Source: Nothopassalora personata
Taxonomy: Eukaryota > Ascomycota > Dothideomycetes > Mycosphaerellales > Mycosphaerellaceae
Direction of reading: 5' to 3'
DNA: 64,000 nt
NCBI GenBank assembly: GCA_033816765.1
Contig: CM066287.1
Location: 4,402,001 to 4,466,000, forward strand
Positions within the stretch are counted from its first letter, which is position 1; each line of letters begins with the position of its first letter. Below, piece after piece: positions 1,975 to 55,336 of this stretch. Below the pieces are notes generated by a model. The model worked only from the letters and a program-made list of their open reading frames with translations, made no database searches and was not told the DNA's origin. Both the position numbers and the translations under genes were made by a program.

Positions 1975-2565
1975 CATCACGTTCATCGCACTGGGCAAGC
2001 ATCTTGGAAAGCTGGGCTCTACATAAAAGCGATATCCCATGAAGTGGCACACCATGAGCAATCTCCGAAGATCCCAAGCACTGCCACGAGTGTCAGACTG
2101 CGGATCAATACCTCTTCACAGGTGATTGCCTATCTATCGGCACGCCGTGAATCATCTTCAGAGCTCCTAAACATTGCAACGAGACCCCAGATGCAAATCC
2201 AAGCTTCGCGAGGGCAGCAACTCAGGACGTGATTTCACTTCACAAGTGATTGGCTATCTCTCGACACACCGTGAATCATCTTTGGCTACCAAGCATTGCA
2301 ACGAGGCCCCAAATCCGAAGCCAAGCTTCGTGAGGGCAGCAACTTGGGGAGCAACATCTCTTCACAGGTGATTGCCTCGTACGTGCGTTTACACGACGAA
2401 TTGGCACGCCGTGAGCAGTCTTGTTCAAGATCCCTAGTCTCGCCACAAGTTCCGGAGAGCGAACAGAGACTTCGTCCGGGCTGCATCTTGGGAAGTTGGG
2501 TTCACATGAAGACGACAGCCTACAAATTGGCACACCACGAGCAATCTTCACAAAAAGCTCACGGG
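1975..2565. repeat. Degenerate tandem repeat, about 125-bp unit, five or more copies
   Basis: A recurring block begins with GGCACRCCRTGAGCAATC or a close variant at about 2046, 2139, 2263, 2403 and 2529, giving spacings of 93, 124, 140 and 126 bp. Between these starts are diverged copies of further shared segments: ATTGCAACGAGRCCCCA, AAGCTTCGYGAGGGCAGCAA and TTCACARGTGATTG. An older partial unit (GGGCAAGCATCTTGGAAAGC) precedes the first block near 1998. No frame stays open through all copies, so it looks like a non-coding minisatellite-like array, or the relic of one. Confidence 0.7.
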
Positions 2566-5042
2566 TCTTGGAGCACCTTACTTGCCTCCCTTCATCTGCC
2601 TTGTGCTACGAGGTGGGCAGGCATGCTGAATGTACAGCGAACTGAAACCCACCCTGTTCGCCATTGGAAGAGCAGGATACAAGGCCAAGATATGGAGTTT
2701 ATAGCTCAGTTCCTCACCGCCACAGAGTGACTTTCATTTCAACAACTGAGGTCAACAGCCTCATAGGTGCATATCACCGGCGGGATCACACGCTTTCAGC
2801 TTCATACCATCCACGTCTTGCAGCGGGTCTCATTCACGTGAGGTGGTTCGTATGGGCCACAGTGCCATGTATCAAAACTCGAAGGTCGTGTGATATTCTT
2901 CGTCGAAGAATGCGTCATTCGCTGACATAATGTTACCTTGGGCCGCTCGATCGAGTATGTATCTGGGAGACAGCCTGAGGCAGACACCGACGGGATGCCT
3001 TTCCTGGACACAGACCTCGTCACGAGCGCATGCATTGCACCGCCACACCGTCAGTCTTTAACCGGCGTCCAGACAACGTCCTGGAGTATGCAAAGTATTG
3101 TTGCAATGACCAGGTCATGAGCCAGTACATGTGAAGCCATATGAGTGACCTATGCGAATGCGTTGAGATCACAGCATACAACGTTGAACGCTGAATGCGT
3201 AAAAGTATCTTCGTACCGATGTCAGATTGGGCATGTGAAGCCCTCTAGCACACCAAAATGCGCTTGCCCGCCCGGCGAGGGCTAGTAGCATCTATGTTTC
3301 CTATAGCCGCAGCAGACTTATGGGGGGCCTCCCGGAGGAAGGGAGGATCTCGTGGGAGGACCTAAGTGCAGCGGAGGCTAGGGGGTGGGTATTCATCATG
3401 TGATGGATTTGATTGATTAGTCAGATGGAGGGCTGCCCATAGTCGAAAATGGGGAGTTTTCCCGTGAAAGCACGTTGAGCAGATGAGAGGCGCGCTGGCA
3501 ATTGGCTCCGCAAACACAGGGCTGCGGAGGTCAGGAGGTGGAGATGTGGATATACCCCAGATGACAGGTACAGTACAGTACCGCCGGGTCAAGCCACGGT
3601 CTTCCCGAAGATCACGAGATGGGTTGAAACAAGCGTCTGACGGTAATGTTCGGGTGCGATCACGGGAAGTGGACATCTGAGACCCCAGATCACATGCGGC
3701 GAAAACGCTGTCTGACGGCAAAGGCTTTTGGGAGCATCACGAAGACCTTCCGCACCGTTCACGCGCCACGATGACCGGGGCGCACGCCTTTGCGACGCCC
3801 ACCCGCGATTCCCCAGAACTCTAGCACAACTGATGGGACACGCCGGTGAGCCTTGGTCGAAGAAGCTTTACCAGGAACCATCGGCTCTACTGCGTCTGCC
3901 GGGAAGAAATCCCGTATCTCCTCAGACACACGCGTGACCTGAAAGACGCGCCGATGATGTTGTTGGCTAGTCTCGTGAGAGGAAAACAAGAACGGGCTCG
4001 TTGTCTGAGACCGGATCTCTGCAACTCTCGTCAACACCTGCGACGTGGCCGAGCCTGTGGATCGACGATCTGTTGCTGTTTCCTTGATGGATGACGATGA
4101 ATATCAAACATTTGCACTGTTTCAGATCCGTGGGAAGTGTCTGTCAGGGCCGAGCAGCACCAGCCGGGCCGAGAGCGCTCATAGCGGCTGAATCACCATG
4201 CAGAAAGTGAGGGATGCGCGACGGGCAGCGAGTGATCTTGTTGCACGGTAGCAATTCATCTTCGTTCATCGTGGTATCCATGCACAACACGAGCAGGTCA
4301 TGGTTCGCTGGTTCTGTCGTCTAGTCCTTTACTCGTGGGCTAACAGGCTTCATCGATGTTCTTGTGATCATGGGGACATCGCGCTCAGGGCATCTCGATG
4401 TCCGACAAGGACTAGGAAGTGGCGGATCTGGGGCGGTGGCGGAAGGTTGACTCGTGTGTGCAAGGGCCAGATTCATACCGTGCCTTGGTTGTATGGAGTG
4501 CCGACAGCTGTCCAACGCTTAATACGAAACGAAACAGAAGGGATGATCATGCTAATGGTACGCGCAATGGCGACGACATCTTGCTTCTTCATGTGACAGA
4601 CCTGTTCTGCATCACGTCCGGGTGCACGCCTCAAGTCGCCGCTAACAACCGATTATCGAGTCATGAACTAGGCCGATACTCAGATGCCGATGTATGCTTC
4701 GCTCTACGAGGTCCTTGTTTCTGGCTTCAAACTTGCACGATCGTGGCAGCCTAGTCCACGATAGTCCTTCCGTTCGCGCTGGAGAAATTGTCCGTATATC
4801 ATAGCATGTTCCTGGACTCCTACAAATGCGGACATTGATCATATGACCGCAAAAGCCAACGGTCTCGTGGCGTTGAAGACAGGCCGGTCGGAAAAGGTTC
4901 AGCTGACCATTGCGGAGAGCGTAATTCAGATCGATATGATGGAGTATTGATCGAACGATGGTGTTTGAATCTTAAACCAACTTCTGCGAAGAGTCTTTGT
5001 TGTTAGTGGAAGCTAGGGTTGCATCGTGCCTATAGCCGTCAT
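2566..5042. other. Gene-poor stretch, no supported gene
   Basis: Only short frames with biased composition occur on either strand. I saw no splice-linked exon series, tRNA or transposon signature. Composition resembles the neighbouring unique DNA, with no RIP signature. Confidence 0.5.
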
Positions 5043-35282: not shown

Positions 35283-35743
<461 letters not shown>

Positions 35744-35753
35744 AGATACAGCT

Positions 35754-37421
35754 ATGCAACCACCATTACAGCGTGTATTGTCTTCAAACGAGGCCAAACT
35801 GACCTTAGCTGTCCAGGCCACGAAACGCGACGCGACAATCACGAATCGACTTGCTGCAAAGGTATACGACGCGTCTCGAACCACACTAGGGTATCGATTG
35901 AATGGACGACCTCCTCGGGGTGACTGCGAGCCCAATTCGAAGAAGCTTACAGAGCTAGAAGAGAGGGTGATACTTGAGTACATACTCGAGCTGGATCTTA
36001 GAGGTTTCCCGCCATCAAAGGCTAGCGTACGAGCAATGGCCGATTCATTGCTACAAGAGAAGGGCCTCAAGCCCGCTGGTCTCAATTGGACAGACAGGTT
36101 CATTGGGCGGCATCGTGAGCTAAAGGTTCGCATGACACGTGGATACGATCGTCAGCGAGCCCTAATGGAAGATCCAGACGTTATCGAGAAGTGGTTCTTG
36201 CTTGTGCGTAATATGAAGGAGAAGTATGGCATCCTCGACCAGGACACCTACAACTTTGACGAGACAGGGTTTATGATGGGTGTTATTACGTCGCAGAGCG
36301 TCGTTACGGGTTCAGAAAGGCGTGGTGGAAAGAGGAAGGTCGTCCAACAGGGCAACAGAGAATGGGCAACAGTGATTGAGACCATCTGTGCAGACGGAAC
36401 AGCGCTCCCACCCTACGTCATCCTTGCAGGCAAACAGCACATCAGTACCTGGTACCAAGACGGCAACTTGGGTCCAGACTGGACAATCGGGCTAACAGAG
36501 AACGGCTGGACCAACAATGAGTTCGGTATACGGTGGCTGGAGCATTTCCAGAAGCATACTGTAGCTCGTACGACTGGGGCATGGAGACTGCTCATTATCG
36601 ATGGCCACGAGAGCCACAACTCGAAGGCATTCCAGAATCTGTGCAAGGAATACAAGATCTTGGCCCTATGTATGCCATCGCACGCCTCGCACTTACTCCA
36701 GCCATTGGATGTGGGTTGCTATTCGCCTTTGAAGAAGGCATACGGTGCTCAGCTCTCGGGCTTGGCACGCCAGCGCATCACTCATGTCGACAAAGTAGAG
36801 TTCCTACGCGCCTTCCGGGCTGCCCATGACGCTGTATTTAGACAGGAGAACATCCTATCGAGCTTCAGAGGCGCTGGTTTGGTTCCATTCAATCCACAGG
36901 CAGTGATAGACAAGCTTGATGTTAAGCTACGTACGCCAACGCCTCCAGCTCCGGACTCTACCCCTTGGGAGTCGAAGACACCACGAACTGCAAAAGAATT
37001 CGACTCTCAATCGACACTAGTAACGAACAAAATGCGTGCCCGGGCAGGTTCATCGCCAAACTCGTTACAGGAAGGGGTGCATCAGCTTGTGAAAGGGAGT
37101 AGAGAGATAGCGCATCAGATGGCTCTTATGCGAAGCGAGATCAGTGAGCTACGCAAGTCTAACGAGGCCCTTACACAGCGGAAAGCACGAAAGCGCAAGT
37201 ATATTCAGTCTAGAGGGTCTCTAACCTTCGATGAGGCGTCGCAATTGATACCTCCAGAGGATACTAGGAGGCAGGAAGTAAGTAGAGAGTCGCTAGATGG
37301 TGTTCGGCCAGCACCAAGGCTACGACGCTGCAAGCGATGTGGCGAGTCGGGGCATAACGTACGCACCTGTCAAGTAGACTTGCTAGATAGCGAAGAATCT
37401 GAAGAGGAATTGTCCTCCTAG
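35754..37421 (+). CDS. Pogo-type DDE transposase with C-terminal CCHC zinc knuckle, 555 aa
   Basis: The frame is open from the TIR, but the first ATG is at 35754 (MQPPLQRVLSSNEAK). Domains in order: an N-terminal helix-turn-helix (residues about 10-60), a CENPB-type DNA-binding region (RVILEYILELDLRGFPPSKA ... NWTDRFIGRH), and a DDE_1 catalytic core with acidic residues in YNFDETGFMMG and LLIIDGHESHNS, and LPSHxSHLLQPLDVG-like CMPSHASHLLQPLDVGCYSP. A coiled-coil-prone segment (SREIAHQMALMRSEISELRK) and a CX2CX4HX4C zinc knuckle (CKRCGESGHNVRTC) follow near the end. It would cut and paste its own element. No disabling mutation seen. Confidence 0.93.
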   Translation: MQPPLQRVLSSNEAKLTLAVQATKRDATITNRLAAKVYDASRTTLGYRLNGRPPRGDCEPNSKKLTELEERVILEYILELDLRGFPPSKASVRAMADSLLQEKGLKPAGLNWTDRFIGRHRELKVRMTRGYDRQRALMEDPDVIEKWFLLVRNMKEKYGILDQDTYNFDETGFMMGVITSQSVVTGSERRGGKRKVVQQGNREWATVIETICADGTALPPYVILAGKQHISTWYQDGNLGPDWTIGLTENGWTNNEFGIRWLEHFQKHTVARTTGAWRLLIIDGHESHNSKAFQNLCKEYKILALCMPSHASHLLQPLDVGCYSPLKKAYGAQLSGLARQRITHVDKVEFLRAFRAAHDAVFRQENILSSFRGAGLVPFNPQAVIDKLDVKLRTPTPPAPDSTPWESKTPRTAKEFDSQSTLVTNKMRARAGSSPNSLQEGVHQLVKGSREIAHQMALMRSEISELRKSNEALTQRKARKRKYIQSRGSLTFDEASQLIPPEDTRRQEVSRESLDGVRPAPRLRRCKRCGESGHNVRTCQVDLLDSEESEEELSS

Positions 37422-46817: not shown

Positions 46818-47001
46818 TGTAAGGGCGCGCGTACCATAGGGTCCGAATGAGATAGTTGGTGTTCTACGAAGCTACGAAAGAGGAGCGCGAGGCGCGGCGG
46901 ATAGATAAAGCATCGCCAAGCCGCGCTAACCCGATGCGGAAGGTCCGAGGTTCCGCCGGGACGACGCATCGTCAGTGAAGGGTCGCGGGCTGCCCGTGAC
47001 A
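46818..47001 (-). repeat. 3' LTR of B1, 184 bp
   Basis: TG...CA ends, same sequence as 53,934-54,117. The pol frame continues into it. Confidence 0.95.
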
Positions 47002-49088
47002 GTACCCCCCCTCTCAAAACTCGTCTCAGTCCTCTGAGCGTTCAGTCCATTAACTCGCCTATCCATCGTCTTGTGCGGCCACTTATCACCCTTGCCTGTC
47101 GAACTCCATAATCGTGCAAACGTCCAATCGTCTTCAAGGTCGTCCTCCATCTCTGTCACTACTGCTGCGGCTTGCGCATCAGACTCTGTTTGCTCATACT
47201 GCTGGCACGCCCAGGGCCTAAGCCCCTCTTCGGCGAACGCTCGCGTCTGATCCTTTTGACCAAGGTTGGGTATCAATGCAGGCTCTGCAGGGTTCGCTAG
47301 AACATCGGTACAACTGTCTGTTCTGTCGTAGAGCTGAGGGCGGCGGCTTGCACCGTGATCCTCAGTTGGGACGACGGACTTTCCTGTAACCTGATCATCG
47401 TAGCGGTGCGTAGTGAACATGCGCTGACCAGATTCTATCAGAGGCAAGGCTCGGCTAGGCTTATTTGTGGCGGTGTCTCTGTCGACCCTGATCGTGTTAA
47501 GTCCGAGCACCTCATTGACTGGAGACCAGTCAGATGGCGTTGCGAAGCCCTGAGGCGTGGGCAAATCCGGCCGGCTGTGGTGAAAGTCCGCAAGAGCGGC
47601 GGCTGCCCTCACAAACAGGTCCTCTGCAGGTTGCCAAGTCTCTCCGGCCTCCATATCCTGATAGCCAGTCCATCGCACCTTGTACCAAGTGTCCACCTTG
47701 CGCTTCTTTCCCTTCTTCACTTTGCCTGCGCGCTTCCGCGTGTACATGTCCAAGATCTTGTCCACCTCATATTCTGGTGCCGGGGCTGTGACTGTGACAT
47801 CGGCGACTGCGTCAGCTGCAGTTGTGTCGGGTTCGATGGCCACTGGCGGCGGCGGTGCCAGGTGCTGTCCCTCGAGCGGTGGGAGATCGGGGTTGTCGGC
47901 TCGCTGTAACAGGGAGGTGTGGAAGCAATTATCGAGTCCGCTCAATGCATCCGACAGGTTCAGCTTGTATGACAGCCTAGCGGGCATCACCTCCGTGATC
48001 TGGTACGGTCCTGCATATCTGCGGTCCAGCTTCTTGGATGGTCGAGTGGTGCGAATGTTCTTCGTGCTTAGATACACCCAGTCGCCAACCTTGTAGTCTG
48101 GTGGGATGCTTCGGTGCCTGTTTGCTGCTTCGGCTTGCAGCGCCTGTGACATCCTCATGTTCTCTTGAAGATTGCGATGTAGCTCACAGATGCGTTTGGC
48201 GAAGGCTTCGGCTGACTTGCTGTCGAGTCGCTGAAGGGTTGTCATGTGTCGGTCCTTGCCTGCTTGCAAATCGATACGCTCGGTGAACTCTGGGTTATAT
48301 CCAACATTGGCGTAGAACGGTGACACTCCAGTGGTCTCCGACACTCGGTTGTTAATAGCGAACTGCGCTAAGCACAGCCAGTCGGCCCAGTCGCTCTGTG
48401 CCTCATTCGTGAAGGTGCGTAAGTACTGTTCCATCTCTTGGTTAGTGCGTTCTGATTGCCCATCCGTTTCAGGGTGGTAGGAGGAACTCAGCTTCCTGCT
48501 GATGCGCAGCATCTTGCATAGGCGCTTCCAGAAAGTGGCGATGAACTGCTTTCCGCGATCAGACGTGATGGTTTCTGGGAGGCCATGCCGGGTGAACACG
48601 TGCTTTAAGAAAAGTCGCGCCGCGTTCTGCGCTGTCATCGCGCCGATGGGTATCAGTTCCACTTCCTTAGTGAGTCTGTCGGTGACTGTCATAACATTGG
48701 TGTAAGTCATGCCGTCGAGTTCGCTTGGTGGCAGGTCAACCACAAAGTCAACTGCGATGTGTTGCCAAGGTCGTTCTGGCACCGAAAGTGGGTGCAGTAA
48801 TCCAGGTGGCTGGGTATGCACAGATTTCGTCGTGCGGCACCTGCGGCAATTCGCGTTGTATCTGCGCACAGATCTAGCCAAACCAGGCCAGTAGAATTCA
48901 CGTGCAACGAGCTCGTAGGTGCGGGCTCTGCCTGGGTGACCGGCCGCTGGGGTGTCATGGTTCATCTTGACTATCCGAGTGCGGAGCTTCTGGTCCTCTG
49001 GCACCCATAGACTCCAGTCATTATACTGGTTACGGACGTACAGCAGGTCCCCTTCGACCTTGCAGTGTACTGGATGCACCTTCGCTTT
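46926..49088 (-). CDS. B1 pol, 3' portion: integrase and chromodomain
   Basis: Same frame as the upstream protease-RT frame, separated from it by a single TAG (49,089-49,091). Integrase: HHCC zinc finger (H...GHPGRARTYELVAREFYWPG ... CRRCRTTK) and DDE core (AVDFVVDLP, TSDRGKQF, YHPETDGQSERTNQE). A GPY/F-like segment (RRYAGPYQITEVMPARLSY) and a chromodomain (YEVDKILDMYTRKRAG ... TWYKVRWTGY ... ETWQPAEDL) follow near residues 430-520. The chromodomain marks the element as a chromovirus, which targets heterochromatic histone marks. A 190-residue tail runs through the polypurine tract and stops inside the LTR. Confidence 0.92.
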   Translation of the reverse strand, partial: KAKVHPVHCKVEGDLLYVRNQYNDWSLWVPEDQKLRTRIVKMNHDTPAAGHPGRARTYELVAREFYWPGLARSVRRYNANCRRCRTTKSVHTQPPGLLHPLSVPERPWQHIAVDFVVDLPPSELDGMTYTNVMTVTDRLTKEVELIPIGAMTAQNAARLFLKHVFTRHGLPETITSDRGKQFIATFWKRLCKMLRISRKLSSSYHPETDGQSERTNQEMEQYLRTFTNEAQSDWADWLCLAQFAINNRVSETTGVSPFYANVGYNPEFTERIDLQAGKDRHMTTLQRLDSKSAEAFAKRICELHRNLQENMRMSQALQAEAANRHRSIPPDYKVGDWVYLSTKNIRTTRPSKKLDRRYAGPYQITEVMPARLSYKLNLSDALSGLDNCFHTSLLQRADNPDLPPLEGQHLAPPPPVAIEPDTTAADAVADVTVTAPAPEYEVDKILDMYTRKRAGKVKKGKKRKVDTWYKVRWTGYQDMEAGETWQPAEDLFVRAAAALADFHHSRPDLPTPQGFATPSDWSPVNEVLGLNTIRVDRDTATNKPSRALPLIESGQRMFTTHRYDDQVTGKSVVPTEDHGASRRPQLYDRTDSCTDVLANPAEPALIPNLGQKDQTRAFAEEGLRPWACQQYEQTESDAQAAAVVTEMEDDLEDDWTFARLWSSTGKGDKWPHKTMDRRVNGLNAQRTETSFERGGTVTGSPRPFTDDASSRRNLGPSASG

Positions 49089-51728
49089 CTAAAGGAGTGC
49101 TGGGGTCTCGCCCTTCTGCAGGGCTCTAATAGCTGACTTCAGGTCTGCATCCGCGGCATAAGCCATTGTCATTCTGTACTCGAGTTCGGCTTCCTGTTCC
49201 GTCTCGGATGCTGTCTGCGTCTGCGTGGACGGTATGAATTCGGTGGCCTCCGGGTTCAGGGCTTCCTCAATTGGTGCGGTAGGTGTGTTCTCAACAGGTG
49301 CAACATCCTCAGCCGCATCTTCGACAGTTGCGCGCATCGAGTCGATCTTAAGAAATCGCTCAGGCGGCAGCAACGTCTGATGCTGATGCTGATTTCGCGG
49401 ATCGTCCACCCCCTGCGGAAGGTCCTGGCTGCGTCTCGTGAGGCTGTCAGGCTTTGTGCCTTGGACACCTGGTCGATAGACAATACGGAAGTTGAACTGG
49501 GACAGGAATTCGGCCCAACGTGCCTGGCGCCGATTCAGCTGCTTAGTGGTCATAAAGTACTCCAAGTTCTTGTGATCCGTGAACACCTTCACGGGTTCGA
49601 TGGTGTCATCATCCGCCTCGCAGGCCAACTCCGGGCGCCATTCCTCGAAGGCCTTAATAATCGCTAGAAGCTCCTTGTCATAAATCTCATAGTTGCATTC
49701 CTGCGGGCTCAGCTTCTTTGAATAGAATGCTACAGGGTGAAGCACGCCTTCCTCGTCGTACTGAGAAAGCACTCCGGCGTTCACGAAATCTGATGAGTCC
49801 GTTTCGACTACTGTTTGCCTACCGGGCACATAGTGTGCGAGCATACCGGCTTTGCTGAATGCTGCCTTCAGAGCGTCAAATGCTGCTTGGCATGCTGGTG
49901 TCCAGTCAACCCTGCGATTCTTGTGATTACTAGGTCCATTTGACTTGGTCAATTCGGTCAGCGGCGCTGCGAGGCGTGAGAAGGCCTCGATGAACCGTCT
50001 GTAAAAGTTGGCGAATCCGAGGAACGCCTGCACATCCTTGAGGTTGGAAGGTGCTTCCCATGACTGGATACATTCAAGCTTCTCTGGGTCCATTTCGATG
50101 CCATCTGGGGTGATAATAAGTCCCAGGTACTTAACTCGCTGCTGGTGGAACTCGCACTTGTCGATGTCGACCGTCAGTCCGGCATCCCTCAATTTTGCTA
50201 GTACCTTGCGCACATGTTCGATGTGCTCCTCCAGTGTGTCGCTAAAAATTAAAACGTCGTCCAGGTACGCGGAGACGAAGTCATCCAGGTGTTCTTGTAA
50301 CACGCTGTTAATGTATGACTGAAACGACGCAGGGCCATTGCATAGGCCGAATGGTAACACAAGACATTCGTACACCCCATATCGTGTAGCGAATGCTGTA
50401 AGCCATTCGTGCCCTTCTGCAATGCGAAGCTTGTTGAAGGCTGCGACGATGTCCAGCTTCGTGAAGTACCTCTTGCCGTGCATGCGGTTCAGTGTCTCTT
50501 GGATTAGCGGTATAGGGTACCTGTTCTTAATAGTGATCGCATTGAGTCCTCGGTAGTCGATGCACACGCGCAGTCCACCGCCTGGCTTTCTGACTACCAG
50601 TACTGGTGCCGGCGATTGGCTCGTCTTCTGTCCTGCTGGCCGGACTTTGCCTTGTTGCTCCTGTTCGGTGACCCACTTCTTGACTGCTTCATTCTCCTGA
50701 GGCGCCAGTCCGTAGGGCTTACGGTATGGCGGTTCTTGGGGCCCATCAGGCTTGATGTGAATTTCGTGGTCGATTCCAGGTCTGTGAGGAGGAAGTCCTT
50801 CATGGTCTTTCGCTGAGAATGCATCTACGAGATCATGGTATTCTGGTGGGAGCTTCTCCTTCGGGTTATGGTTGAACTCCTTGTTCAGGAACTGATCCAA
50901 GTCATCAGCTGCCATTGCGCTCAGCTTGATCTCACCATCGCCTTCTTCGTCCTCTTTGCCGGTAGATAGTATGTAGAAACATTCAGCGCCAGGTCGGTGC
51001 GCGTACATCTCGAAGGCGCGCTGCGTGACGCCTATACACTCGACTTCCTCATCATCGTCGTACAGGCCCATCGAGGATAGGTTCAGTTCTGCTTCTGCCC
51101 CTCCTGCCGTGAAGCTGCGATCATCGGTGAAGGGCTCTGGTCCATATTTCATTGCTTCCTTACGTTGTCGGTGTCGATGGTTCAGGGACTGGACTGTTGT
51201 CGATGTCTTGTTCTTAAGACAGTGACCAAAGCAGTAGTCTGATCTGAGTGCCACTTCACCGGTCTCCCAGAAGATGTTTGGGTTGTGCGTGCTCAGCCAC
51301 GGCAGGCCCAGGACGATGTCGTATTCGAGGTCGGTTATGTAGCATAGCATTTGCTCGTGATGACCGTCGATATCAACATCGACGAGGGCTACGTGCGTGA
51401 TGCGACGTGCAGCAGCCTTACCATCCCCAAGGGTCAGGTTCTTGTTGCGCACAAGGGGTATCAAGGGTATTCTGTGTTTGCGTGTGAACTTCCAGTCGAG
51501 AAAGAGAGAGGTGGAAGCAGAGTCTACAAGGCCTCGTGCCTTCCCATGCTGTATCATTACTGGGAGTACTATGTGAGGGTGTACATCTGGTTGCTGCGGC
51601 TCCAATGCGCAGGCCGATATCTTCAGCTCCTCACCATAGTCTGTATCCGTGTCTTGCTCTTGCACTCTGTGTCTCTCAATCTCATGCTCTTTCTGTCCTT
51701 GGTTGTTCGGTTGACCACTGTCTGCCAC
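49089..51728 (-). CDS. B1 pol, 5' portion: aspartic protease, reverse transcriptase and RNase H
   Basis: An 879-codon frame. The retropepsin-like site is LVDSASTSLFLDW (Asp-Ser-Ala). RT motifs: LRVCIDYRGLNAITIKNRYP, LPFGLCNGPASFQ and YLDDVLIF with the catalytic DD. RNase H: ETDSSDFVNAGVLSQ and NYEIYDKELLAII. It has no ATG at its 5' end: the first in-frame codons overlap the last codons of gag in a different frame, so expression needs a ribosomal frameshift or reinitiation. It ends at an in-frame TAG exactly between RNase H and integrase. Confidence 0.92.
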   Translation of the reverse strand: MADSGQPNNQGQKEHEIERHRVQEQDTDTDYGEELKISACALEPQQPDVHPHIVLPVMIQHGKARGLVDSASTSLFLDWKFTRKHRIPLIPLVRNKNLTLGDGKAAARRITHVALVDVDIDGHHEQMLCYITDLEYDIVLGLPWLSTHNPNIFWETGEVALRSDYCFGHCLKNKTSTTVQSLNHRHRQRKEAMKYGPEPFTDDRSFTAGGAEAELNLSSMGLYDDDEEVECIGVTQRAFEMYAHRPGAECFYILSTGKEDEEGDGEIKLSAMAADDLDQFLNKEFNHNPKEKLPPEYHDLVDAFSAKDHEGLPPHRPGIDHEIHIKPDGPQEPPYRKPYGLAPQENEAVKKWVTEQEQQGKVRPAGQKTSQSPAPVLVVRKPGGGLRVCIDYRGLNAITIKNRYPIPLIQETLNRMHGKRYFTKLDIVAAFNKLRIAEGHEWLTAFATRYGVYECLVLPFGLCNGPASFQSYINSVLQEHLDDFVSAYLDDVLIFSDTLEEHIEHVRKVLAKLRDAGLTVDIDKCEFHQQRVKYLGLIITPDGIEMDPEKLECIQSWEAPSNLKDVQAFLGFANFYRRFIEAFSRLAAPLTELTKSNGPSNHKNRRVDWTPACQAAFDALKAAFSKAGMLAHYVPGRQTVVETDSSDFVNAGVLSQYDEEGVLHPVAFYSKKLSPQECNYEIYDKELLAIIKAFEEWRPELACEADDDTIEPVKVFTDHKNLEYFMTTKQLNRRQARWAEFLSQFNFRIVYRPGVQGTKPDSLTRRSQDLPQGVDDPRNQHQHQTLLPPERFLKIDSMRATVEDAAEDVAPVENTPTAPIEEALNPEATEFIPSTQTQTASETEQEAELEYRMTMAYAADADLKSAIRALQKGETPALL

Positions 51729-51730
51729 GC

Positions 51731-53764
51731 TTAGGCAGTGGCCTCGCCATTTCCCTGCCCGGCGGCCAGGGAACTGAGGTTGGTGTTGCCTCCGTTGTTG
51801 TTACGCGGGCGCGGTGGGCGATAGTCGCCGTCGTAGCTATACATCGGGCACTCGGTATTGCTGGATAAGTGGGGTCCGGTGCGGCATCGGTAGCACTTGC
51901 CCTGCTTCTTCAATTCCTCGCGACCCTCATAGTTGAGCGGTGGGAGGTCCCGAAGGTGAGCTGGCAAGTCTTCCTTCTTCTTGGTGCCTACGTACTGTGG
52001 TGGGCGCTGAACGACGGCGCCGGCAGCACCAGCGGCTGCAGCTGCAGCTGTGTTGCCCTGGTTCTGGTTGCCGTTGCCGTTGCTGTTCTGGTTGCCTCCT
52101 CCATTGCCGCGTGGGCGGTTGTTGTTCTCTTGAGGGTACAGCTGCTCGGTCTCGTAGAACTGCTCGTCCAGTGCAGTGCACTCTTCGATCACGTCCTGCA
52201 TGCTGTTCAGACGTCGGTCCACCTCGCGGTCTCCGAAGGTCTTGATGTAGTAGCGCTTGTTGAGGCGTGTGCGGAACAGCATCAACTCGGTCTCGTCACT
52301 CCAGTCAACCCATGCCCTCAGCTTGGAATAGCGTGCGAAGAATGGGACGAAGTTCTCCTTCTGAGCCTGTTTGCAGGTAGTGATGTCCACTGCAGCCTTG
52401 GTGGCCTCGTTGCGGACGCCGTACTGTCGAGTCATCCAGTCCAACAGTTCTTCGCCAGTCATGAACTCGTTGAAAGCCTGGTGCCCGGGGATGGGGATGC
52501 GAGGCTTCACAGTCTTCTGCACCTCACCGTCCGTCCATCCATACAGGAAGCGTAGGGCGTCCTGTTCAGTGCGGAACGTCGCGACTGTCAACTTCAGCAG
52601 GATGCTTGTGTACCAGCTGTCATAAGTCGGGTCGTCATCGTTCTTGAACTTCTTTGGGTCAGGCACACCCTTGCCGATCTTCATGCTGCGGTCGAGGGTG
52701 GGGTCGATGTTGATGAGACGCTCCGGCAGGTCCACGAGAGGTGTCTGCTGCGTGCGGTTGCTGCGACCACCGCCTGACCGCTGCGTGCCTTGTGTGCCTT
52801 GGCGCTCATCACGACGTGGTCGGTCATGGTCACGACCACGGCGATCCCTGTCCTTGTCTCCATTGCCATCGTCATCATCGTCTCCTCCGCCACCTCCTCC
52901 TGCTGCCGCCTCACGGTACCGACGCTGGAGCACCTCGAGTGAGGTCTCGCGGGGTGGTGGTGATCGTGGGCGTGAGCGTGGGCGCGAGCGCGAACGACGT
53001 CCTCGTGCCTGGTCCTCTGCTGCTTGCAGACGGACCTTCAGGTCATCAACCTCAGCTTGTAATGCCTGGCTCTTCTTCTTCTCCGAGTCGGTGATATCGG
53101 CGAACTGCTGACATAGCTCGTTCGCATCCTTGTACTTCTTCTCGACAGCCTTGAGTTTGAGGGTGTCGGCGTTCTTATTCTTAAGGTCCTGGGCCATCTT
53201 CGCGAGGGCGGTCTGTTCGGTCTTGAGCATCCCGTGGATGCGATCGTACTCGGCATACAGCGTACGGTACTGCTTGTTCTGAAGTGCATTGGCGCGTTGC
53301 ATCACATCGAGTTGTTGGCTAGATATGATGGCAGTGTTGAATCCTCGTAGCACGAAATCGTGGACGGTCTTCGGGTGTTCCTTGGTCAGTGTGGCCAGGT
53401 CTTCGGCGGTGATGTTCTGGAAGTCGGCGGCAGCGATGTGTTCGGCTTCGTCGTGTGAAATGAAGACTGGTGTGTCCTCCTCTTCTCCCACCCTGGGCTC
53501 GAAGAGTTCTGTGAAATCAAGCTCACCGTTCTGCTCCCTGTCTTGTGCTTTGTTCCATGCCTTGTCCAGCTCTTGCTGAAGCGCGACACCGGTGTCAACT
53601 GTGACTCGCCGAGTGTCGTCTCCTTGTGTCTGACTGTCGAAACTGGAGAGGTCGGGGAAAAGAGAGGTGCGCTTGCCTTGTGTCTGTGACTGCTGGGAAG
53701 TCATGTTGTTTCCTTCAACGCGGCCTGTTGCTGAGGCCTTTGGTGCGTTGGTTTCCTTGGGCAT
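51731..53764 (-). CDS. B1 gag, 677 aa
   Basis: ATG at 53764 (MPKETNAPKASATGRVEGNN). A coiled-coil-prone N-terminal half is followed by an Arg/Ser-rich low-complexity segment (RSRSRPRSRPRSPPPRE) and a Ty3-type capsid region (FMTGEELLDWMTRQYG, ARYSKLRAWVDWSDETELML). A zinc knuckle variant (CYRCRTGPHLSSNTEC, CX2CX4HX6C) lies near residue 640. It would form the cytoplasmic retroelement particle and package the RNA. Confidence 0.9.
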   Translation of the reverse strand: MPKETNAPKASATGRVEGNNMTSQQSQTQGKRTSLFPDLSSFDSQTQGDDTRRVTVDTGVALQQELDKAWNKAQDREQNGELDFTELFEPRVGEEEDTPVFISHDEAEHIAAADFQNITAEDLATLTKEHPKTVHDFVLRGFNTAIISSQQLDVMQRANALQNKQYRTLYAEYDRIHGMLKTEQTALAKMAQDLKNKNADTLKLKAVEKKYKDANELCQQFADITDSEKKKSQALQAEVDDLKVRLQAAEDQARGRRSRSRPRSRPRSPPPRETSLEVLQRRYREAAAGGGGGGDDDDDGNGDKDRDRRGRDHDRPRRDERQGTQGTQRSGGGRSNRTQQTPLVDLPERLINIDPTLDRSMKIGKGVPDPKKFKNDDDPTYDSWYTSILLKLTVATFRTEQDALRFLYGWTDGEVQKTVKPRIPIPGHQAFNEFMTGEELLDWMTRQYGVRNEATKAAVDITTCKQAQKENFVPFFARYSKLRAWVDWSDETELMLFRTRLNKRYYIKTFGDREVDRRLNSMQDVIEECTALDEQFYETEQLYPQENNNRPRGNGGGNQNSNGNGNQNQGNTAAAAAAGAAGAVVQRPPQYVGTKKKEDLPAHLRDLPPLNYEGREELKKQGKCYRCRTGPHLSSNTECPMYSYDGDYRPPRPRNNNGGNTNLSSLAAGQGNGEATA

Positions 53765-53933
53765 CTGTTGCTTAGTGCCTTGCCGTGTTCCGTGTTCTGA
53801 ATCCGTTTGCCTCTGTTGCGATGTTGCGAGTCGCGAGTTCTGTATCTACGCCGTGCGCGGTTCTGTGAGTCTGTTCCTGTTGTTACGCGTCCCTTACCTG
53901 GATCCGCGATCTGGGTAGGGAGGTAGAACAAAC

Positions 53934-54539: not shown

Positions 54540-54553
54540 TAAAGAGGGTAGTT
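54540..54553. repeat. Target-site duplication of the retroposon, left copy
   Basis: The 14-mer TAAAGAGGGTAGTT recurs at 55,314-55,327, bracketing a block of very different composition. Confidence 0.85.
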
Positions 54554-54631
54554 GTCGTCCTATAGAGAGCGCCTTCACGCGGCGGACGACGTAAGTATCT
54601 TCGTTACGACGAAGAGAAACTAAGACTCTCT
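54554..54631 (+). ncRNA. Candidate HDV-like self-cleaving ribozyme at the retroposon 5' end
   Basis: All elements of the nested double pseudoknot can be placed with Watson-Crick pairs. P1 GTCGTCC (54,554-54,560) pairs with GGACGAC (54,584-54,590). P2 AGAGAGC (54,564-54,570) pairs with G-A(bulge)-CTCTCT (54,624-54,631). P3 GCC (54,571-54,573) pairs with GGC (54,581-54,583) across the 7-nt L3 TTCACGC. P4 TCTTCGT/ACGAAGA is closed by a TACG loop (54,598-54,615). J4/2 then contains CTAAG with C54620 in the position of the catalytic cytosine. Predicted self-cleavage falls just 5' of G54554, the first base after the target duplication, matching how R2 and other LINE-type elements process their 5' ends. 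Confidence 0.72.
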
Positions 54632-54811
54632 CTCTCGAAAAATACAAGCCTACTCGACTCGAAACAAGAAAAGACAGGTCGGACGAACCGAACGAACGAG
54701 ATACGCTCAAAATCTACAAACAAGAACTCCGGAACTGCGAGAAGGGAAAGCGACGTACATAGCGTACACGTCGCTCGAACAACGAAGGCGCTGTCTACCT
54801 GTCGTCCCGGC

Positions 54812-54900
54812 AAACCACGTAAACTGCCGGCTGGAACCAAGAGAGGCGTTTAGGGGCGCAAACCACGTATACTGCACGGCTGGAACCAAGAGAGGCCGAG
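54812..54900 (+). repeat. Two-copy tandem repeat, 48-bp period, in the retroposon
   Basis: AAACCACGTAnACTGC followed by GGCTGGAACCAAGAGAGGC occurs at 54,812 and again 48 bp later. Confidence 0.85.
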
Positions 54901-55147
54901 GGGGGGACGACAGCGAGGCCACTGCGACCGAGGAGCTACACTCGAGACCGGAGAACGCGACTGGATTGAAACAGAGGCAACGGGTGTTTCTTGGGATTTT
55001 GCTCGGTGCGTACGGGTACGGCCGGCTTGGCTTTTTAAAACAAGAACGAGACACGGGCGCAAAACTTGTCTCGCCCGGGGCAAGGCGACAAACCGCAATT
55101 CTCGACAAGACACGACTACCGGGTACGCGCGTACTACGCCGCAATAT

Positions 55148-55262
55148 ATTCGATTTACGGTTCGAATAGCGAGCGTTGCTCGCATCTTTTAAGGAGTTTT
55201 TACGTCCGGGGTACGACGGGGCTTTTCTCCTTCTCTCAAATTTTGGTCTCGTTCTCGAGACC
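55148..55262 (+). other. Hairpins near the 3' end of the retroposon
   Basis: Three stems can be drawn: ATTCG/CGAAT (55,148-55,167), GCGAGC-GTT-GCTCGC (55,169-55,183) and GGTCTCG-TTCT-CGAGACC (55,245-55,262). Such 3' structures are often the recognition site for a partner element's reverse transcriptase; here that is inference. Confidence 0.6.
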
Positions 55263-55313
55263 CGTGTTGCATAGTCTTTGACTCAAATAGCACGTTAATG
55301 GAATAATCAATCA

Positions 55314-55327
55314 ATAAAGAGGGTAGT
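55314..55327. repeat. Target-site duplication of the retroposon, right copy
   Basis: Identical to 54,540-54,553. Confidence 0.85.
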
Positions 55328-55336
55328 TATAGTATC

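Follow-up and report, generated by a model that had tools for sequence, protein, structure and literature searches.

The first 80 or so nucleotides of a short retroposon in the ascomycete Nothopassalora personata are read here as a putative HDV-like self-cleaving ribozyme, with a probability of about 0.9. The element lies in the window, the whole stretch of 64,000 nucleotides analysed, and is probably a ribozyme-headed non-autonomous retroposon mobilised in trans by a LINE in whose examined pieces no such head was found. The first-pass annotation had proposed an HDV-like ribozyme at the exact 5' end of the element; target-site duplications, the rarity of the fold in descriptor searches and covariation among other copies support this reading, in which cleavage is predicted. 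The coordinates of all parts are given in Table 1.

Table 1. Positions in the window of the retroposon, its flanking duplications and the parts of its predicted ribozyme
Feature	Positions	Strand	Remarks
Target-site duplication, 5' copy, TAAAGAGGGTAGTT	54540..54553	+	14 bp, same letters as 55315-55328
Whole non-autonomous retroposon	54554..55314	+	761 bp
P1, 5' strand GUCGUCC	54554..54560	+	cleavage is predicted to leave G54554 as the first base
J1/2 UAU	54561..54563	+	
P2, 5' strand AGAGAGC	54564..54570	+	
P3, 5' strand GCC	54571..54573	+	
L3 UUCACGC	54574..54580	+	directly before the P3 3' strand
P3, 3' strand GGC	54581..54583	+	adjoins P1'
P1, 3' strand GGACGAC	54584..54590	+	
J1.1/4 GUAAGUA	54591..54597	+	nearly invariant in 43 heads, most of which were found with a pattern containing GTAAGTA
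P4 hairpin UCUUCGU-UACG-ACGAAGA	54598..54615	+	7 bp, UACG loop
J4/2 GAAACUAAG	54616..54624	+	putative catalytic C54620, assigned from conservation and fold
P2, 3' strand: G54624, bulged A54625, CUCUCU	54624..54631	+	
Element body, apparently non-coding	54640..55259	+	no match to the LINE pieces examined
3' tail common to the resident LINE, ending AATCAATCAA(TCAA)n	55260..55314	+	94.6% over 56 nt to two LINE copies compared (L084, L085), the 56th nt being the first base of the duplication
Target-site duplication, 3' copy, TAAAGAGGGTAGTT	55315..55328	+	matches 54540-54553

Extent, ends and copies of the element

Short, non-coding, bounded by target duplications and ending like a LINE, the element has the features of a non-autonomous non-LTR retroposon. 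Only one ATG occurs in it, at element position 745, and a protein search with its longest frame gave no relatives at E 0.001. The genome searched comprises 54.5 Mb in 40 contigs. The first 38 nt of the element are found at 290 places with at most 3 mismatches (0 for the reversed control) and its 3' end at 312 places with at most 2, the copy number being about 300. On contigs C1-C3, a head lies at the distance expected from 55 of the 61 exact 3' ends, as counted by eye (53 of these heads were found by the search with the first 38 nt and 2 by the RIP-changed core pattern), and the majority of these copies are thus full length. The tail varies between copies, with AATCAATCAA(TCAA)n and a few other extensions.

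The 5' end is sharply defined. The set of young copies holds 38 loci, of which 36 are distinct, L022 being the window's own place and L016 carrying the flank of L015. An exact duplication of 10-15 bp abuts the equivalent of G54554 in 31 of the 36 distinct copies, L017 has a duplication with one mismatch before the same G, and in the other 4 no duplication was seen. Other copies thus share the start at G54554, and the fold begins, as first annotated, at the base that follows the 14-bp duplication. The young copies are 97.9-100% identical, and no difference occurs among the 38 loci in the first 79 nt; the burst is therefore recent. An alignment of young copies used the 31 with an exact duplication.

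The body carries a direct repeat of about 38 bp (54810-54847 and 54858-54896), over one unit of which copy L007 is deleted. A second GTCGTCC/GGACGAC pair, at 54801-54807 and 54905-54911, encloses this repeat; its letters are those of the P1 strands, with which it could compete.

Promoter signals

No Pol III B box was found in the element with two patterns, nor a canonical A box; a degenerate A-box pattern is present at three places and two runs of 5 T lie inside. The internal Pol III promoter of a strict SINE is thus not found in the element, which by usage in the excerpted text of PMC3414825 is SIDE-like rather than a strict SINE. From the lack of a B box and the internal T runs we infer transcription by read-through or from an unknown promoter.

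These data bear on the possibility that an internal promoter or a protein-binding module makes up the 5' structure and sets the start at G54554, the exact end then coming from initiation. Precise initiation would also give exact 5' ends, and the trypanosomatid Pr77 head is described as both promoter and ribozyme in the excerpts of PMC4035085, PMC8190864 and PMC4748587. However, neither the double pseudoknot, nor its paired double changes, nor the letters of L3 and J4/2 are needed by a promoter, and the box searches gave nothing beyond the degenerate A-box pattern, which makes this explanation improbable.

Layout and rarity of the fold

In a layout drawn on paper, the head of the element can be accommodated in the nested double-pseudoknot order P1-P2-P3-P1'-P4-P2'. 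Checked base by base, every part of the HDV-like double pseudoknot is present at the coordinates first proposed, all stem pairs in P1-P4 of the window copy are Watson-Crick, and the 7-nt linker described between P1' and P4 is J1.1/4. P1.1 may consist of only one Watson-Crick pair, between C54576 in L3 and G54591 in J1.1/4. L3 differs from the consensus L3 of the CPEB3 ribozyme in its last base alone.

On the two strands of the window a loose descriptor of the fold has one match; 40 dinucleotide shuffles of the 64 kb (2.56 Mb) contain 9, a chance rate of about one per 280 kb of one strand, so that a fold recognised by eye in a window of this length is insufficient alone. A strict descriptor, which allows Watson-Crick pairs only in P1 and P3, at most one G-U and one bulge in P2 and does not demand P4, has one match in a single strand of 100 shuffles (6.4 Mb) and none with the L3 signature. 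Its sole place in the window is the first base of the element, a position fixed independently by the target duplication. Applied to both strands of 298,668 bases of genomic loci, it gave 49 matches at 44 distinct places, as loci overlap, all 49 bearing the core letters of the element's head family.

Minimum free energy folding of the first 87 nt, which ignores pseudoknots, forms P1, P3 and P4 and leaves both strands of P2 free, with an energy no better than that of shuffled sequences under the same pseudoknot-free folding (z 0.09; 102 of 200 fold as well). P1 is absent from the minimum free energy structure of the whole element and formed in its centroid structure.

Comparison with Rfam models

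The covariance-model check proposed for the window head gave a negative answer at the formal threshold, no Rfam family reaching its gathering score. A 2.5-kb query returned no HDV family at E up to 10. The short query gave a sub-threshold match to HDV-F-prausnitzii (RF02682) at 54554-54616, starting from G54554 (19.9 bits, E 0.05 and 0.04, gathering 44), which is the best HDV-like model for the window copy. The alignment is in register for P1, P3, L3 and P1'; the J4/2 consensus of the model falls on part of P4. Since J4/2 is out of register and CRISPR-DR32 obtains the same E-value on this head (21.9 bits versus 19.9), the match is weak when taken alone. For the older locus L150 the best HDV-like model is the CPEB3 ribozyme (RF00622; E 0.036, 19.4 bits against a gathering score of 35), in an alignment that keeps J4/2 in register; the L3 of L150 has the CPEB3 consensus letters. 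Among the seven older loci tried, L117 and L135 match HDV-F-prausnitzii (E 0.61 and 9.1) and four (L149, L129, L142, L120) have no HDV-like Rfam match. Neither the CPEB3 ribozyme nor HDV-F-prausnitzii is known to be borne by a retroelement.

These sub-threshold matches support a kinship of fold, not membership in the Rfam families concerned. Scores below gathering make it less probable that the head is a member of RF02682 or RF00622 and do not reduce the case that it works like them, because the models are narrow and omit P2. Further sub-gathering matches, to CRISPR-DR32, TLS-PK5, snoR30, TB11Cs4H3 and BTnc231, were taken for chance, even though CRISPR-DR32 scores like the HDV model. A model built from the heads gives the window copy 105.6 bits, a value high by construction, the next matches in the window having E 0.15 or worse. 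A search of viral contigs with the core pattern found nothing.

Conservation and covariation in older heads

Older copies were gathered with a core pattern carrying a RIP-type change in L3, which has 39 mismatch-free places in the genome; these and one mismatched place were examined. With three heads from related searches and the window copy, and after dropping L143 (identical to L117), 43 distinct heads were obtained, mostly RIP-damaged older copies. L3, J1.1/4 and J4/2 are nearly invariant among them, a conservation that is partly built in at L3, P3' and J1.1/4, since the search that supplied 39 of the 43 rows demanded TTTACGCGG with at most one mismatch and thereby fixed the letters of these segments and the RIP-changed base. 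L3 reads TTYACG in all 43 heads, its last base being C in 42 and T in 1. The putative catalytic C is present in 40 (within CTAAG, CTAGG or CTAAA) and replaced by T in three RIP-damaged heads (L106, L108, L126).

Compensatory changes, which had been suggested as a check, were found in P1, P2 and P4. The second pair of P1 is U-A in 37 heads, C-G in 4 and U-G in 2; the third pair of P4 is U-A in 39 and A-U in 4, and its second pair C-G in 33, U-A in 3 and unpaired in 7. The first pair of P2 is G-C in 24 heads, G-U in 8, unpaired in 10 and A-U in the active family only, which is one row of the 43. Some lineages have a shorter P4 that still pairs, CCUU-UUCG-AAGG in L121 and CCAUC-GAU-GAUGG in L150, and the standard closing pair of P4 is missing in 23 of the 43. 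P3 is paired at 98.4% across heads, and 89.8% of the cells of P2, P3 and P4 together pair. The covariation score, 0.172 for these three stems, is reached by 0 of 500 shuffles, which give 0.147, and sliding the partners brings it to 0.098 at most. The numbers of double-change pairs and of further pair types are not above those of shuffles (239/500 and 407/500), which ignore relatedness. P1 was counted by segments and excluded from the alignment count because MAFFT shifted it by one column in lineages with a shorter J1/2; its strands pair barely better with their own partner than across sequences (6.30 versus 6.17 of 7), a gap that is small because most heads have one common P1. Since the set includes many old copies that are dead and RIP-damaged and were selected by a pattern fixing part of the core, it is the double changes at the level of lineages that carry weight and not the totals.

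That the whole could be a chance resemblance, a structured retroposon 5' end without catalysis, draws on the 9 loose matches in 2.56 Mb, on a z value near 0 for folding energy and on the absence of any score over the Rfam threshold. Against it stand the single strict match in 6.4 Mb and none with the L3 signature, the exact position of the fold, the covariation and the sub-threshold matches to HDV families, in view of which we regard chance as very improbable.

Taken over all copies, P1/P2 pairing and the CUAAG segment have not disappeared. They are intact in the young copies examined, and double changes maintain the pairing in older lineages, although single RIP-damaged relics are broken. Such relics are common, as would be expected of a ribozyme once active and now hitch-hiking in the element as a fossil. 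Every stem pair and the putative catalytic C are nevertheless preserved in young copies that are 97.9-100% identical, and copies so intact and near-identical derive from recent activity of an intact master, which renders the fossil explanation highly unlikely next to that of a working ribozyme.

At the pair 54564/54631 of P2, the active family has A-U; 24 of the 43 heads have G-C there and 8 an unpaired A.C. The active master may derive from a RIP-hit copy in which pairing was restored.

In 24 old copies, conservation rises abruptly at G1, from 0.29 to 0.89, and declines again after about 90 nt; eight heads with other spacing were excluded and 24 of the remaining 32 kept after removing common flanks. 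The profile is ungapped, and its drop beyond about 100 nt is partly lost register. The old copy L147 has a head 93% identical over 88 nt, a 3' part at 78.5% over 289 alignment columns and a middle without match; as judged from this sequence, the head is a module.

Eight old heads (L106, L109, L130, L132, L133, L136, L139, L140) have a near-identical upstream flank (gtagt..ggctacc); apparently another repeat or a duplication took one ribozyme copy with it. Eighteen of the 39 mismatch-free matches to the RIP-changed core lie within a 1.2-Mb stretch of contig C6 (0.14-1.30 Mb), which suggests an old, repeat-rich compartment. Locus L004 holds two old heads of different lineages, at 2544-2614 (-) and 2719-2765 (+), about 100 nt apart and in opposite orientation.

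The resident LINE and the proposed mechanism of movement

The LINE with which the element has its 3' tail in common encodes an endonuclease (PF14529) and a reverse transcriptase (PF00078). It was found through PF14529, since the candidates listed for PF00078, 150 out of 1916, were judged by match length to be LTR-type frames. The endonuclease match is free of stops in 11 copies, and in 7 of these it lies in a 1110-aa open frame. The LINE tail is of AATC type, like that of the element, with the motif present in 6 of the 11 three-prime pieces examined and missing from the other five. Three-prime ends of the LINE number 15 in the genome versus 312 for the element, about 20 to 1.

A comparable ribozyme was detected neither by descriptor in the 401-nt 5' pieces of two LINE copies and in L070 nor by the family model in 14 LINE pieces totalling 15,412 bases, the pieces examined covering all but about 780 nt of the LINE. 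Its 5' start differs in sequence from the head of the element. By eye, two LINE copies, C1a (L086, about 1603-1696) and C7a (L089), have about 90 and 40 nt of unshared sequence between the duplication and the common start, and C4a a few extra bases. The extra sequence of C1a and C7a is possibly upstream transcript or the result of template jumping.

From the ends and the tail, which are observed, we infer how the element moves, the simplest reading being mobilisation in trans by target-primed reverse transcription (TPRT). The element would be transcribed within a longer RNA starting outside it. The ribozyme would cut this RNA immediately 5' of G54554, with C54620 as the general acid proposed from fold and conservation, so that the element RNA regains its precise 5' end. 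At its LINE-like 3' tail of about 56 nt this RNA would then be recognised by the protein of the resident LINE, which would copy it into a staggered nick of the chromosome; the outcome would be duplications of 10-15 bp and mostly full-length copies from G1. Circularisation of a unit-length RNA before reverse transcription, on the model of the plant retrozymes with hammerhead ribozymes described in the excerpt of PMC4918200, is hardly credible here, since a single head per young copy, single copies, a LINE-like tail and duplications fit TPRT of a linear RNA.

To a fuller account, built on the ribozyme reading, we give even odds: the element would be a promoterless ribozyme-headed fungal SINE whose head is a free-standing module not taken from the helper LINE, which rides on host read-through transcripts, cuts its own exact 5' end, outnumbers the ribozyme-less LINE and has long persisted while the body was swapped and older copies were damaged by RIP.

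Relation to known ribozyme-headed retroelements

In the literature found, HDV-like ribozymes at the head of retroelements come from animals and trypanosomatids (excerpts of PMC3774820, PMC4035085 and PMC3414825, on which the comparisons below are based). The closest precedent is that of the Drosophila R2/R1 hybrid SIDEs (PMC3414825). Like the element, they combine an HDV-like head with the 3' end of another LINE, R1, the presumed source of the machinery that moves them, and they show target duplications, apparently recent activity and compensatory changes in stems. Unlike it, they reside in 28S rDNA, have a ribozyme that comes from R2 and are present in few copies. The element is found in a fungus, at dispersed sites and in about 300 copies, with neither a donor of its ribozyme nor a source of its body found.

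R4, Dong, baggins and L1Tc are named in PMC3774820 as cleaved at the 5' end, and R2 too bears a ribozyme of this kind. The R2 ribozyme resembles the head studied here in the order P1-P4, in the C of J4/2, catalytic in R2 and putatively so here, and in a conserved L3 with a functionally important G, and it cleaves at or near the 5' end of R2, as predicted here; R2 is in contrast autonomous and rDNA-specific, and its silkmoth form has a very long J1/2 versus 3 nt in the element (PMC3774820). The Pr77 of trypanosomatid L1Tc, NARTc and SIDER likewise places an HDV-like ribozyme at the first bases of both autonomous and non-autonomous elements (PMC4035085). The short trypanosomatid elements are truncated or degenerate relatives that share the head of the autonomous one, whereas in the LINE pieces examined here no similar head was found.

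The first-pass annotation had considered that an ascomycete case would be new. By titles and the beginnings of abstracts, no fungal retroposon with an HDV-like ribozyme was recognised among the matches listed in a literature search of incomplete coverage, and to that extent the claim stands; the R2/R1 hybrid SIDEs, in contrast, are a precedent for the architecture, which is therefore not new in principle. As far as the searches reach, what is new is the fungal host, the dispersed life at high copy number, the body and the absence of a donor. A recent, genome-wide and high-copy ascomycete case would extend ribozyme-headed retroelements to fungi. Such a case would also provide a system in which head (the ribozyme), tail (that of the LINE) and helper (the LINE with open frames) can be separated and tested. 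It raises the questions of where the ribozyme came from if the helper has none, how the element is transcribed without a recognisable promoter and how it spread in a RIP-marked genome.

Other features of the window

The best named relatives of an srs2-type helicase in the window come from Fulvia fulva (82% identity), Zasmidium cellare (68%) and Dothistroma septosporum (88% over a partial protein); on this single protein, a Mycosphaerellaceae-like Dothideomycete is the most likely host. Just upstream of the element, 46926-53845 (-) holds frames of a Ty3-type LTR retrotransposon with reverse transcriptase, RNase H, integrase and chromodomain. An open frame for a DDE_1/Tc5-type transposase is found at 35283-37421 (+).
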